DNA of 64,000 nucleotides, from positions 62,001 through 126,000 of the forward strand of contig JAOABC010000004.1 in the NCBI GenBank assembly GCA_026418535.1. The letters run 5' to 3'. This stretch comes from Hydrogenothermaceae bacterium (GTDB lineage Bacteria; Aquificota; Aquificia; Aquificales; Hydrogenothermaceae). Of this stretch, positions 3,062 to 38,864 are shown in pieces (position 1 is the first letter of the stretch; every line of letters begins with the position of its first letter). A model generated the notes under the pieces. It worked only from the letters and a program-made list of their open reading frames with translations, was not told the DNA's origin and did no database searches. The position numbers and the translations under genes were made by a program.

Positions 3062-6000
3062 ATCTTCACCTCTATCTGTTTTGATTCTAAATTATACCCT
3101 ATAACTTTGTATACAATAGGGAGAACTATCAGAGTAAGTATAGTTGAGCTAAATATACCACCTATAACTACTACAGCTATGGGTTTTTGGACTTCTGAAC
3201 CAATGTCTGTTGTCAGAAGTATTGGTATTAAACCTAAAGATGAGGCTGTAGCAGTTATGAGTATAGGTCTCAGTCTGAGAGTTGTAGCTCTGTTTATCGC
3301 TTGATTAATATCCATACCTTCTTGTAGCAGTTGTCTTAAGTATGAGACTAAAACTACCCCGTTTAGTGTGGCTATCCCAAAAACAGCTATAAACCCTATA
3401 GCTGACGGGACAGAGAGGTTGAACCCGGATACGTAGAGAGCCAATATACCTCCCATTGTGGCAAAAGGTACATTCAGTATAACTATAAGGGCATCCTTTA
3501 GTGAACCGTAGTTTAAAAAGAGGAGTAAGAATATAAGTAGTATCACCACAGGTACTATCACAGATAGTCTCTTCATAGCCCTTTCTTGGTTCTCAAACTG
3601 TCCACCAAACTTTATGTAATATCCCTCTGGAAGCTTAATATTTTTTTCTATCTTCTCCTTTATCTCCTTAACAAACCCCCCTAGATCTCTACCCTCCAAG
3701 TTAGACTGAATAAGAGCAAACCTCTGCCCATTCTCGTGTCTTATCTTAGCAAAACCCTCTGAAACATTTATCTCTGCTACTTGGGAGAGAGTTAGCATGT
3801 ATCCCTTCTTTGTCTTGAAAGTGAGTTGTGATATCTTGTCTACACTGTCCAATATATCTTCCCTAAACCTTACAACTATAGGAAATGTTATAACTCCCTG
3901 CTTTATGTAACTCACATCTTCTGATGCGAAGTAACCTCTTATGACAGAGAGTATATCCTCTACTGTCAGATCATACCTAGATAGTATCTCTTTTTTTGGG
4001 GTTATTTTAAGTTGCAGTTTGCCACTTTGTGCTTCTGTTTCTACGTCCACCGCTCCTTTAGTATCCTTTATCAGATCCTCCACTCTGTAGGCTATCTCGT
4101 TTATCTTGTTAAGGTCATCTCCAAACACCTTTACAGCTACAGTTGATTTAACTCCGGATAGAAGCTCGTCTACCCTCATCTGGATTGGCTGTGTAAAACT
4201 AAAGTGGACTCCTGGTATATCTTTTAACTTCTCCCTTAGAGCATCTTCAAGTTCATACCTGGATTTTAAAATTTTCCACTCCTTGTAAGGTTTTAGTGTA
4301 ACAAAGGTTTCTATGTAGTAAACATCTTCTGGCTCTCCCTTCTCCGACCTTCCTATGGTTGAAAAGGCATTTTCAACCTGAGGAAAGGATTCAGCCATCT
4401 CTTCCACTAAAGACGCAACAGCCTTAGCTTGAGATAGGTTTACATTAGGGTCTAAGAAGCTCTTTATCAATACACTTCCCTCATCTAAAGTGGGAGCAAA
4501 CTCTGTCCCTATTCTGGATAATAAAAAAAGACTAAAGATAAACATAGAGAAGACAGCAACCAGAACTGACTTACTATGTTTTAGAGCAGATTTTAAGACC
4601 TTATGATAACATCTTACCAACATCCTTAGTAAGAAAGGCTCCTCTTCCGCATCTCTTTTCAGGAAGAAGTAAGATAGAACAGGCATGAATATAAAAGCAA
4701 CTAAAAGAGAAGATATCAAGGCAGAGATGATCGTAAGAGCTAGTGGCTTGAAATATTTCCCTTCTACAGATTCAAAACTAAAGATAGGTAAAAACACAAC
4801 GATGATTATCAGGATAGCGAAGAATACAGGTTTAAAGACTTCCTTCACAGACTTCTCTATAAGAGTCATCTTGTCTAAATTTTCCCTATGAGAAAGATGC
4901 CTGTGGATGTTCTCTATCACTACAACTGTTGCATCTGCGAATAGTCCTATTCCTATGGCTAACCCAGACAGGGACATAAGATTTCCACTTATGTTTACCT
5001 GCTTCATGAATATAAAAGTCATCAGTAGAGTAATTGGTATAGATAGGACAACTACAATGGCAGTCCTTATATTTCCAAGGTAAACGACTATTGCTATAGC
5101 TGCGAGGATTATCCCCTCTACAAAAGCCTTTTTAATAGTATTTATTGCTTTCTCTGTTAGATAGGACTGGTCATAGAGTATCTTGATTTCAACATCCTTT
5201 GGGAGGATCTTCCTTATATTTTCTATCTCCTCTTTTAAAGCAGATACTACTTCTTTGGTGTTTGTATTTATCCTTTTTAGAACGATGTTACCTTGGACTT
5301 CCTCTCCATTTAAGGTGAAGGCCCCTCTTCTATTTGGTATTTCCCCATCTTCTACAGTTCCTAAGTCAGATATTTTTATAAAATTTCCATCTATCACCTT
5401 AACAGGTGTTCTCTCTATGGCGGGAATGTCTGTATAGTATCCAATACCCCTGACAACCAGATCTCCTTCTGGAGTCTTTGAGTATCCTCCACCTGCTACA
5501 CCCCCGAAAGTTTTTAAAGCATCCATGATATCCCTGTAGTCTACATTGTAGAGCAACATCTTCCCAGGGTCTACTCTCACTATGAAAGCTCTATCAGGTC
5601 CCCATTGGGATATCTCCTCAACCCCTTCTACAGTTCTAATAAGTGGTCTTATCTTCCATTCCTGCAATGTCTTTAACTGTGTTAATGTTTGGTTCTTTGA
5701 AGTGAGTACATATATCAGGACATTTCCAAGTCCAGAGCTGTTTGGCCCCATTACTGGGTTATAATCCTGGGGCAGATACCCTTTAACGTCCAGTAATCTC
5801 TCCATAACAAGTCTTCTTGCGAAGTATACATCTGTTCCATCTTTGAAAAAGACAGATATGTAGGAGAGTCCTGGTAGTGAGATGCTCCGGACAAGCTCCA
5901 CATCCTTTATCCCAGACATGAAGGTCTCTATCTTCTTTGTAATTAAGCTTTCAACCTCTTCTGCAGACAGACCTGGACCTTGGGTGTATATGTTCACCTG

Positions 6001-35513: not shown

Positions 35514-35566
35514 TTGACCTACACTAAATACAGTGGTATATTGTGTAAAAACACTATATGTAGGAG
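35514..35566 (+). promoter_or_regulatory. nrdBA promoter with two NrdR-like boxes
   Basis: TTGACC (35514-35519) and TATATT (35537-35542) are 17 bases apart, a good sigma-70 promoter. The spacer is filled by ACACTAAATACAGTGG (35521-35536), which matches the NrdR box consensus acaCwATATaTwGtgt at about 13 of 16 positions. A second box, ACACTATATGTAGGAG (35551-35566), begins exactly 30 bases later, three helical turns, and overlaps the ribosome binding site. Paired boxes in phase are how the ATP/dATP sensor NrdR represses nrd genes. The nrdR gene itself is not in this window. Confidence 0.85.
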
Positions 35567-35572
35567 GTAATT

Positions 35573-36553
35573 ATGAGTCTTATCGGGAAGACTTCTGTAA
35601 GGGACAATATCCGGATAACAGAGGACAGTAAGTATCCTGTTTTTAGAGATCTCTATACAAAGCAGAAGAAGGCTGTCTGGTTTCCAGAAGAACTCAATAT
35701 ACAACAGGATGTTTTAGACTACAAGTCACTCTCTCCTACAGAGAAAGACCTTTTCGACTCTGCAGTTGGGTACTTTGCTTCTTCTGAGCTTCTTGTTCAG
35801 AATGTGCTCGGGAATGGCTTTTTCCCAGTTCTTACAGACCCATACGCTAAGATGAGCTTCTCCACTCAGATGTTTATGGAGAACATCCACTCTGACTTTT
35901 TTGAGATAATCTTAAACAGTTTTGACCTTGACAGAAAGTCAATCTACGATTTAACACTAGAAGATGATCTTCTTAAAGAAAAACAGGAGTTGATAGTAAG
36001 GGCTGTAGACAAGATAACTTACGGTAAAGCAGACCCGGATACTCTTGAAGGTAAGAAGCAGATCTTAACTTCTATATTGCTGAACAACATCATCCAAGAA
36101 GGACTCTTTTTCTACTCTGCTTTTGCCTACTTCTTTGCTATGAAAGACATGGGAAAGATAAAGAACGTAGTCAGTGGGGTAGAGCTTATCCTGATAGACG
36201 AATCTCTCCATCTACAAAACGGTATAGAAGCTATCTTAACAATAGTTGAAGAAAATCCGGAAATCTTAGATGACTACTCTTTCATAGAAAGAGTAAAACA
36301 ATCTATAGTAGACTCTGTTGACCTTGAACTTGACTATCTAAAAAGAAAGTTTGGAGGAACCACAATATTCGGTCTCTCGTACAAAGAGTTAGAGCTCTAT
36401 ATGAAGTACATTGCAGACAGAAGACTTGTAGAACTTGGCTTTGACCCTCAGTTCAATGTTTTGGAGAACCCTTTAAAATTCCTTCAAAAAGAAGATGTAA
36501 AGAAACTGACAAACTTCTTCGAAGTTTCATCTACAGAGTACACTAACTTTTAA
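35573..36553 (+). CDS. nrdB: ribonucleoside-diphosphate reductase small subunit, class Ic-like
   Basis: The 326-residue R2 protein holds the dimetal site that starts the radical chemistry of NrdA. Metal ligands are placed at Glu72, Glu103, His106 (MENIHSDFF), Glu176, Glu210 and His213 (IDESLH). The radical Tyr of class Ia (four residues after the first His ligand) is Phe110 here, and the first ligand is Glu rather than Asp. Both changes together are the mark of class Ic R2 (Chlamydia type), which uses a Mn/Fe cofactor instead of a tyrosyl radical. Tyr323 near the end is the likely radical-transfer residue. No intein is present, unlike the Aquifex homologue. It precedes nrdA by 10 bases. Confidence 0.92.
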   Translation: MSLIGKTSVRDNIRITEDSKYPVFRDLYTKQKKAVWFPEELNIQQDVLDYKSLSPTEKDLFDSAVGYFASSELLVQNVLGNGFFPVLTDPYAKMSFSTQMFMENIHSDFFEIILNSFDLDRKSIYDLTLEDDLLKEKQELIVRAVDKITYGKADPDTLEGKKQILTSILLNNIIQEGLFFYSAFAYFFAMKDMGKIKNVVSGVELILIDESLHLQNGIEAILTIVEENPEILDDYSFIERVKQSIVDSVDLELDYLKRKFGGTTIFGLSYKELELYMKYIADRRLVELGFDPQFNVLENPLKFLQKEDVKKLTNFFEVSSTEYTNF

Positions 36554-36563
36554 GGAGGATTGA

Positions 36564-38864
36564 ATGGAGAGGGTCGTAGTAAAGAGAGACGGCACTGTTG
36601 AAAAATTCCAGATGAAAAAATTGATAGATGCCATCTTTTCTCTTCTAGATGGATTAGATATACCGGACGACTATGAGATTGTATTTAAAATAGCCAAAGA
36701 GTTGGACCTAAAGATTCCGGAAAAGACAAGCACAGAAAATTTAGACTACTTGGTCTTAAAAGCAATCGAGCATCTCATCCCAAAAAGCTTAGTTTACGAC
36801 GCTTTGGCCACCAGACAGCTACTGAAGATAATAAACAGAAAGATAGACAGAGAGTTTTCCGGATTTAAAGATTACATAGAGTATGGTATAAAAGAAAAAC
36901 TCCTAAAGCCAGACCTTAAACAGTTTGATTTAGACCTACTAGAGAGTAAGATAGACTATACAAGGGATTTTAACCTTGACTACTTTGGTCTATCTACATT
37001 GAGAGACAGGTACCTTATGAAGGATAGAAATTTCCAGATTATAGAGAAACCCCAGTGGTTCTTTATGCGTGTTGCTCTTGGTATAGGAAACAACGAAGCA
37101 GAAGTGATAAAGATATACAATAAGCTTTCCAACTTAGAGTACCTTCACTCTACCCCTACTTTGTTTAACTCTGGAACCTTAACAAATCAATACTCTTCCT
37201 GCTATGTGAACGTGATAGACGACTCTCTAGAGTCTATAATGGAAAAAGCCAGAGAAATTGCCTTTCTTGCCAAATACGCAGGTGGTGTGGGAACCGATAT
37301 AACCCGGATAAGAGCCACCGGCAGTAAGATCCACTCCCTAAACGCCAAATCTTCCGGCATAGTTCCATTTATAAAGATATTTGACTCAATCATAAACGCC
37401 ATTCAACAAGGAGGAAGGAGAAGAAGCTCCCAAGTTGTCTACCTTCAGCCTTGGCATCTTGACGTTGAAGCTTTCTTAGACCTTAGAGAGACCACAGGAA
37501 ACCCTTACTTCAGAACTCCATCCCTAAATACAGCCCTATGGATGCCAGATGAGATAATGAGAAGAATTAAAGAAGGAGAGCCTCTGTATCTCTTTGATCC
37601 TGCAGAGTGTCCTGAGTTGATTACTGCCTACGGAGAGAAGTTTAAAACTCTGTACAGTAATTGTATTGAAAAAGCCGAATCCGGACAGCTAAAGCTCTGG
37701 AAGAAGATAGACAGTCAAGACTTCTATAAAAGGTACCTATTTAAACTTGCCAAGACAGGCCACCCTTGGCTCACCTTTAAAGACAGACACAACCAATATA
37801 ACCCTTGTCCTGACTATGGTGTCATAAACTCTTCTAATCTCTGTACAGAGATCTCCATTCCTAACTCTCTAGATAGCACAGCAGTCTGTACTCTAGCTTC
37901 TGTAAACCTTGCCCGTCACATCTTAGAGTCTTCTAAACAGATAGACTGGGAAAAACTGAAAGACACTATTGATATAATGGTTGTAGCACTGGATAACATC
38001 CTGGACAAAAACTTTTATCCATCTGAAGAGTCAAAGAAAAACACCTACGACCTAAGACCGATAGGAATTGGAGTGATGGGATTCCATGAAGCTCTGATAA
38101 AACTCGGCATCCCCTACGACAGTAATGAATCTGTAGAGTTAGCCAGACAGATAATGAGCTTTATAAAGGAAGCTGCCTATAAAAAATCCGAAGAATTGGC
38201 AAAGGAAAGAGGACCCTTCCCCTTCTATAAAGAGTCTTACCCCTACCCACCAAGAAGAAATGCTGTCTTGTTAGCTATCGCCCCTACAGCCTCTATTTCT
38301 ATCATAGCCGGAACATCCTCATCTATAGATGGCTACTTTTCTAACATCTTCTCTAGGGATACTCTTTCTGGAAAGTTTATCGTGGTAAATAAACTACTAA
38401 TGAAAGAACTGGAAGAAAAAGGTTTATGGAATGAAGAACTAGCAGAAAAAATAAAGGCACACGGAGGCAGTATTCAGTATATTCAGGAGCTAGATAGTAA
38501 AATAAACAAATCCCTGTATAAGACAGCATACGAAATAAGCCCTTACAGGCAGATCGACATTGCGACAGCCTTTCAAGAATACGTAGATCAAGCAGTCTCA
38601 AAATCTCTTTATATAGAGGAAGACCTCCGTGACGAGATGGATAAGATTTACATGTACGCATGGGAAAAAGGCCTAAAGTCCACCTATTACTGCTTCATCG
38701 ACAAAACAGTAAAAGGAGAAAAGTATACATTAGCCGTCAACAAAAGGGGTGAGAGAAGAGGCTTTGGCTTAAGCTTAGAGAAAGCTGCAAAGGAAAACTC
38801 TGAAGAAACAAAAGCCTGTCCAACAGACCCTATCCTGGCAAAACTCTGCTCCAGCTGCGAATGA
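36564..38864 (+). CDS. nrdA: ribonucleoside-diphosphate reductase large subunit
   Basis: The 766-residue catalytic R1 subunit reduces ribonucleoside diphosphates. An N-terminal ATP-cone (about 1-90, beginning VVVKRDGTVEKFQMKKL) should give dATP feedback inhibition. Active-site Cys residues are seen in SSCYVNVIDDSLE, NSSNLCTEISIPN and AVCTLASVNLA, with the AP TASIS phosphate loop (IAPTASISIIAGTSSSIDG). The C-terminal tail ends LCSSCE, the redox pair that is rereduced by thioredoxin. It follows nrdB in one operon under the NrdR-like boxes. After the stop, 38865-38946 contains only a short GC-rich palindrome CCTCCGGAGG. Confidence 0.95.
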   Translation: MERVVVKRDGTVEKFQMKKLIDAIFSLLDGLDIPDDYEIVFKIAKELDLKIPEKTSTENLDYLVLKAIEHLIPKSLVYDALATRQLLKIINRKIDREFSGFKDYIEYGIKEKLLKPDLKQFDLDLLESKIDYTRDFNLDYFGLSTLRDRYLMKDRNFQIIEKPQWFFMRVALGIGNNEAEVIKIYNKLSNLEYLHSTPTLFNSGTLTNQYSSCYVNVIDDSLESIMEKAREIAFLAKYAGGVGTDITRIRATGSKIHSLNAKSSGIVPFIKIFDSIINAIQQGGRRRSSQVVYLQPWHLDVEAFLDLRETTGNPYFRTPSLNTALWMPDEIMRRIKEGEPLYLFDPAECPELITAYGEKFKTLYSNCIEKAESGQLKLWKKIDSQDFYKRYLFKLAKTGHPWLTFKDRHNQYNPCPDYGVINSSNLCTEISIPNSLDSTAVCTLASVNLARHILESSKQIDWEKLKDTIDIMVVALDNILDKNFYPSEESKKNTYDLRPIGIGVMGFHEALIKLGIPYDSNESVELARQIMSFIKEAAYKKSEELAKERGPFPFYKESYPYPPRRNAVLLAIAPTASISIIAGTSSSIDGYFSNIFSRDTLSGKFIVVNKLLMKELEEKGLWNEELAEKIKAHGGSIQYIQELDSKINKSLYKTAYEISPYRQIDIATAFQEYVDQAVSKSLYIEEDLRDEMDKIYMYAWEKGLKSTYYCFIDKTVKGEKYTLAVNKRGERRGFGLSLEKAAKENSEETKACPTDPILAKLCSSCE

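Follow-up and report, generated by a model that had tools for sequence, protein, structure and literature searches.

The nrdB-nrdA gene pair in the window, that is the whole stretch of 64,000 nucleotides of Hydrogenothermaceae DNA analysed here, probably encodes a complete class I ribonucleotide reductase (RNR) whose R2 subunit would hold a class Ic-type dinuclear metal site, most likely Mn/Fe, and whose descent is separate from that of the Chlamydia enzyme. Since the usual tyrosine radical residue is missing from NrdB, the enzyme is likely to work through a metal centre, probably one of manganese and iron. By the published sequence definition, under which Phe/Glu denotes class Ic, Tyr/Asp classes Ia/Ib and Tyr/Glu class Id (PMC8463856), NrdB is a class Ic-type R2, as the initial annotation of this DNA had proposed, and that proposal stands with the Glu/Phe pair in place, a complete nrdA adjoining and no other RNR found in the genome.

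The R2 subunit and its residues

The nrdB gene and the codons that matter here, in positions of the window, are:

35573..36553, + strand: nrdB, encoding a 326-aa R2 subunit of class Ic type (PF00268, E 2.3e-60; top PDB match Chlamydia R2)
35678..35680, + strand: Trp36, equivalent to E. coli Trp48 and Chlamydia Trp51, from script and alignment
35786..35788, + strand: Glu72, the first metal ligand, equivalent to E. coli Asp84 and Chlamydia Glu89, from script and alignment
35879..35890, + strand: Glu103-x-x-His106, metal ligands, from script and alignment
35900..35902, + strand: Phe110, at the radical position, equivalent to E. coli Tyr122 and Chlamydia Phe127, from script and alignment
36098..36100, + strand: Glu176, metal ligand, from script and alignment
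36185..36187, + strand: Leu205, at the place of the Chlamydia R2c relay Tyr222, from alignment A1
36197..36211, + strand: Asp209, for radical transfer, with the metal ligands Glu210 and His213, from script and alignment
36539..36541, + strand: Tyr323, the radical-transfer Tyr near the C-terminus, equivalent to E. coli Tyr356 and Chlamydia Tyr338, from script and alignment

The Chlamydia trachomatis R2 (1syy) is the top PDB match of NrdB (E 2.7e-34), and in the alignment to it the residues W36, E72, E103, H106, F110, E176, D209, E210, H213 and Y323, assigned in NrdB by script, correspond to W51, E89, E120, H123, F127, E193, D226, E227, H230 and Y338, so that NrdB has both class Ic changes and keeps all the remaining metal ligands and radical-transfer residues. 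The initial annotation had the frame, its translation and its residue numbers exactly right, and its two central observations, Phe110 at the radical position four residues after His106 and Glu72 instead of Asp as first metal ligand, hold in this alignment, where they fall on F127 and E89. The E72 and F110 columns are invariant in alignment A1. An AlphaFold2 model of NrdB built from 40 relatives (pLDDT 85.9, pTM 0.86) retrieved the Chlamydia R2 structures first with Foldseek, then 6y2n, with the E. coli and Aquifex R2s lower; the rmsd is high (~8 A), and the model therefore informs the fold family only and not the geometry of the site.

Phe110, Glu72, the C-terminal Tyr323 and the adjacent class I NrdA are all as expected of class Ic, in which the radical Tyr gives way to Phe or some other redox-inert residue. 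A class Ia/Ib R2, with Asp as first ligand and a radical Tyr, is rejected by Glu72 and Phe110, and class Ib (NrdF) also by the lack of a PF07972 match for NrdI in the genome and by the NrdF model (TIGR04171 at 66.8 bits, cut-off 355). Class Id R2s have a Glu first ligand, keep the Tyr and carry Lys four residues past that Glu (PMC8463856), and are rejected by Phe110 and Gln76 in NrdB. The feature of R2c that NrdB lacks is Tyr222, which in Chlamydia passes on the electron by which Mn(IV)/Fe(IV) becomes Mn(IV)/Fe(III), the active state, and which has been described as conserved among R2c (PMC4118035); in the alignment its place is taken by Leu205 in NrdB, by Leu in Balneolota and by Trp in the CPR/Actinomycetota clade. 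Conservation of Tyr222 is no defining criterion of class Ic, and because Trp36, the equivalent of Trp51, is kept, direct electron injection via Trp36 is the likely substitute.

The large subunit, the upstream region and the RNR inventory

Around nrdB the window holds:

35514..35542, + strand: promoter-like TTGACC-17-TATATT, enclosing box 1 (consensus match only)
35521..35536, + strand: NrdR box 1 (ACACTAAATACAGTGG), box pair in 27/30 relatives
35551..35566, + strand: NrdR box 2 (ACACTATATGTAGGAG), which overlaps the Shine-Dalgarno sequence, box pair in 27/30 relatives
36564..38864, + strand: nrdA, encoding the 766-aa large subunit, with a single ATP cone and without an intein (PF02867, PF00317, PF03477)

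C213, C427, C442, N425, E429, Y708-Y709, C762 and C765 are all present in NrdA, with roles that we presume to be those known from E. coli NrdA. Neither NrdA nor NrdB of the window has an intein, which bears out the earlier remark that the NrdB intein of the Aquifex type is missing here; inteins in Hydrogenothermaceae were found in NrdA instead. They occur, with splicing and LAGLIDADG domains, in five of the relatives examined (L260, L261, L262, L264 and L265), begin in four of these five at residue 213, where the first active-site cysteine stands, and number two in L262.

A pair of NrdR-box-like 16-mers, 30-32 bp apart, lies upstream of nrdB in 27 of 30 relatives, versus 3 of 9000 randomised upstream sequences. 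The spacer between the predicted boxes is 14 bp, NrdR proteins are known to bind paired boxes with 14-17 bp spacers (PMC12051234), and nrdR itself is present in the genome (TIGR00244, 154 bits). Promoter-like sites are no commoner in this stretch than chance would give (10, against a shuffle mean of 8.8).

The genome from which the window comes (1.47 Mb, 99.94% complete) contains one R2 and one large subunit, and both stretches that match PF02867 belong to the same 766-aa NrdA. Searches of this genome for other RNR genes detected no class III NrdD (control genomes with class III did give matches), no class II reductase and no PF07972 match for NrdI, and they turned up no back-up RNR; as far as gene searches can detect, its host has no RNR but the nrdB-nrdA product. 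With no other RNR in the genome, it would follow that the enzyme must be functional and that dNTP synthesis should need O2 or peroxide for activation. The one other genome from this genus (G078, locus L263) encodes a class II NrdJ (TIGR02504, 681.8 bits), and the two species of the genus thus differ in RNR back-up; genera g6 and g7 of the family mostly have NrdD. A literature search on the RNR of Hydrogenothermaceae or Sulfurihydrogenibium found nothing on the NrdB enzyme.

Distribution and descent

Within Hydrogenothermaceae (family f1, Aquificota) the Glu/Phe pair occurs in 30 of the 30 NrdB loci read (83-100% identity), and it occurs also in all seven Balneolota loci that the tree includes; such agreement means that the pair is neither chance nor sequencing error, and both are rejected as its source. 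In the Aquificota families f2, f3 and f5, the R2s read are Asp/Tyr and ~23-33% identical to the query NrdB, with the exception of genus g14 of family f2, where L033 and L035 carry another R2 of Glu/Phe type, distantly related to the query (~32% identity), that has Trp at the place of Tyr222 and, in L033, no nrdA within the 7 kb read. A single Hydrogenothermaceae genome (G077, locus L032) has an Asp/Tyr R2, which lies with its own nrdA on a 6.6 kb contig and finds its best phage match, at ~44%, in Synechococcus phages; this match and the short contig indicate that it may be of phage or contaminant origin.

Outside Aquificota, the nearest relatives among the matches listed are from Balneolota (Gracilimonas 69%, Aliifodinibius 67%), then MAG L059 (53%), and next among those matches come CPR and Actinomycetota R2s (31-36% identity), likewise Glu/Phe. 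The 67-69% form is found in 11 of 296 sampled Balneolota genomes, and a plasmid search gave only matches below 60%. The Balneolota loci have nrdB ahead of nrdA, as here, with NrdA 62-71% identical, and this shared order, together with the closest sequences among the matches listed, makes transfer of the operon likely. The CPR/Actinomycetota loci examined have nrdA ahead of nrdB.

The initial annotation had named an R2 phylogeny as a check, and this was run as an unrooted maximum-likelihood tree with columns 72 and 110 left out. Hydrogenothermaceae, Balneolota and MAG L059 form one clade (100/100), in which the tree places NrdB, and the CPR/Actinomycetota clade adjoins it (96/93); Chlamydia R2c is placed elsewhere, near Asp/Tyr sequences. 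In AU tests, for which, as in the tree counts, two Glu/Leu rows were counted as Glu/Phe, a single clade of all Glu/Phe rows, that is one origin, was rejected (p-AU 0.0006), as was a clade of Chlamydia with Hydrogenothermaceae and Balneolota (p-AU 0.0013), and the pair has changed at least three times on well-supported branches. Because the tree is unrooted, these changes may be gains or losses and the transfer may have run in either direction.

Polyphyly of R2c is said to have been suggested earlier, by Lundin et al. 2010 (cited in PMC3824934), and elsewhere R2c-type enzymes are said to occur mainly in extremophiles and pathogens (PMC4118035). What is new relative to the earlier suggestion is the Hydrogenothermaceae/Balneolota lineage, its support and its sole-RNR status. 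On balance, we lean towards regarding it as a second, separately evolved tyrosine-free R2 lineage, without the relay Tyr and here the only RNR of its host, that would have arrived at a metal-based oxidant by convergence.

The NrdB of L059 (bacterium isolate MAG-33, 3906-4880) has an in-frame TGA just before its SELLVQN motif and several long frames of that locus contain TGA, which suggests that TGA is recoded there, perhaps as Gly, as in Gracilibacteria/Absconditabacteria. Three contigs from the viral collection (L134, L140 and L145) carry Glu/Phe class Ic-type R2 genes adjoining nrdA, and L241 and L242 (genomes G168 and G312) encode R2s in which Glu is the first ligand and Leu occupies the radical position.

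Proposed mechanism and its alternatives

In the mechanism proposed here, nrdB-nrdA would yield a complete aerobic class I RNR with a dinuclear metal site in R2. Given Glu72 as first ligand and Phe110 instead of a radical Tyr, the oxidising equivalent would stay on the metals once O2 (or H2O2) has reacted; its most probable form is Mn(IV)/Fe(III), Mn occupying site 1. The electron path would run from C427 of NrdA through Y709/Y708 to Y323 of NrdB and on through W36/D209 to the metals; substrate would be reduced by C213/C442 of NrdA, which C762/C765 would recharge, and NrdR would repress the operon at the two boxes over the promoter. A Mn/Fe cofactor is likely, with the Chlamydia pair as guide. 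The sequence itself shows the residues, the operon, the conserved boxes and the lack of other RNR genes, and from these the metals, the missing Tyr radical, the activity and the repression are inferred. For this explanation count the residue match to Chlamydia R2c, Glu/Phe in all 30 loci, the intact nrdA, the sole RNR, the lack of NrdI, the closeness of the model to Chlamydia R2, the NrdR box pair with nrdR, and the separate clade in the tree and AU test. Against it count the search for a Mn importer of the Nramp type, the only type covered, which gave no match over cut-off in the genome (19.4 bits, cut-off 29.8), Leu205 in place of Tyr222, and an identity of only ~30% to the one class Ic enzyme that is well characterised.

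The Glu/Phe pair could instead mark the loss of the Tyr radical and not the identity of the metals, in which case NrdB would be a metal-radical R2 with Fe/Fe or Mn/Mn. This is an unlikely reading, to which the arrival of the NrdB lineage at Glu/Phe apart from Chlamydia, the lack of Tyr222, the glutamate first ligand that di-iron BMMs also have, and the failure of structure to explain metal specificity (PMC4118035) all lend something, yet both positions match those of Chlamydia R2c, which is highly active only with a mixed-metal cofactor (PMC4118035). That the enzyme is class Ia-like, with its radical on another tyrosine near the site, seems very improbable: Tyr67 and Tyr181 are close to the ligands in the sequence, but Tyr181 is found in Chlamydia R2c too, Tyr67 (Phe in Chlamydia) lies five residues before Glu72 and not at the radical position, and the clade's R2s examined include no E/Y or D/F intermediates.

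Even less credence is due to an R2-like ligand-binding oxidase (R2lox) with no role in nucleotide reduction, which would share with NrdB the Glu first ligand and the missing radical Tyr, and whose models match NrdB weakly and far under cut-off (NF006200, 49.6 bits, cut-off 194). NrdB has Asn171 where R2lox would have its cross-link Tyr, five positions ahead of the third carboxylate ligand. R2lox proteins lack a C-terminal Tyr and are not considered partners of an R1 subunit (PMC3824934), whereas NrdB keeps Tyr323, W36 and D209, shares an operon with an intact nrdA, is the only R2 of its genome and belongs to the only RNR there, and R2lox is rejected.

Significance

In the literature consulted, class Ic biochemistry rests mainly on one enzyme, the Chlamydia R2, and an R2 that has the Glu/Phe pair by separate descent and belongs to its host's one RNR would offer a natural replicate of that case. 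If NrdB also needs Mn/Fe, the residue pair would be a cofactor code reached repeatedly, and if it does not, the sequence-based Ic label is unsafe; such a lineage, if truly separate, would let one ask directly whether Glu/Phe by itself determines the use of Mn/Fe. The absence of Tyr222 makes NrdB a natural variant for testing the electron-injection step, and the operon in common with Balneolota points to movement of a core enzyme of DNA-precursor synthesis between phyla.

Comparison with known systems

Of the R2s known from Aquificota, that of Aquifex aeolicus (NrdBh, class I, PDB 7ail) has phylum and fold in common with NrdB, and it has Tyr134, a tyrosyl radical measured by EPR and an intein in NrdB (PMC8772380). 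Aquificaceae-type R2s are Asp/Tyr, 26-31% identical to NrdB and in some cases have an intein-sized NrdB frame, unlike the gene here, and the contrast with Aquifex drawn in the initial annotation is thereby upheld. The Balneolota NrdBs (Gracilimonas amylolytica L057 and Aliifodinibius salipaludis L058; 67-69%) share Glu/Phe and the Leu at the place of Tyr222 but belong to another phylum, and our searches found no characterisation of them. The CPR/Actinomycetota R2s (such as L060 and L061) share Glu/Phe and form the sister clade (96/93), but differ in identity (33-36%), in Trp at the place of Tyr222 and in nrdA-nrdB order. Chlamydia trachomatis R2c (PDB 1syy, 4d8f, 4m1i), the closest solved structure by PDB search and by Foldseek of the model, has the Glu/Phe pair and the other ligands in common with NrdB, which keeps the equivalents of Trp51, Asp226 and Tyr338, but it is only ~30% identical and falls in a different clade (p-AU 0.0013). 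NrdB is best read as belonging to a chemically known kind of RNR and, as a lineage, as a distinct variant of it.
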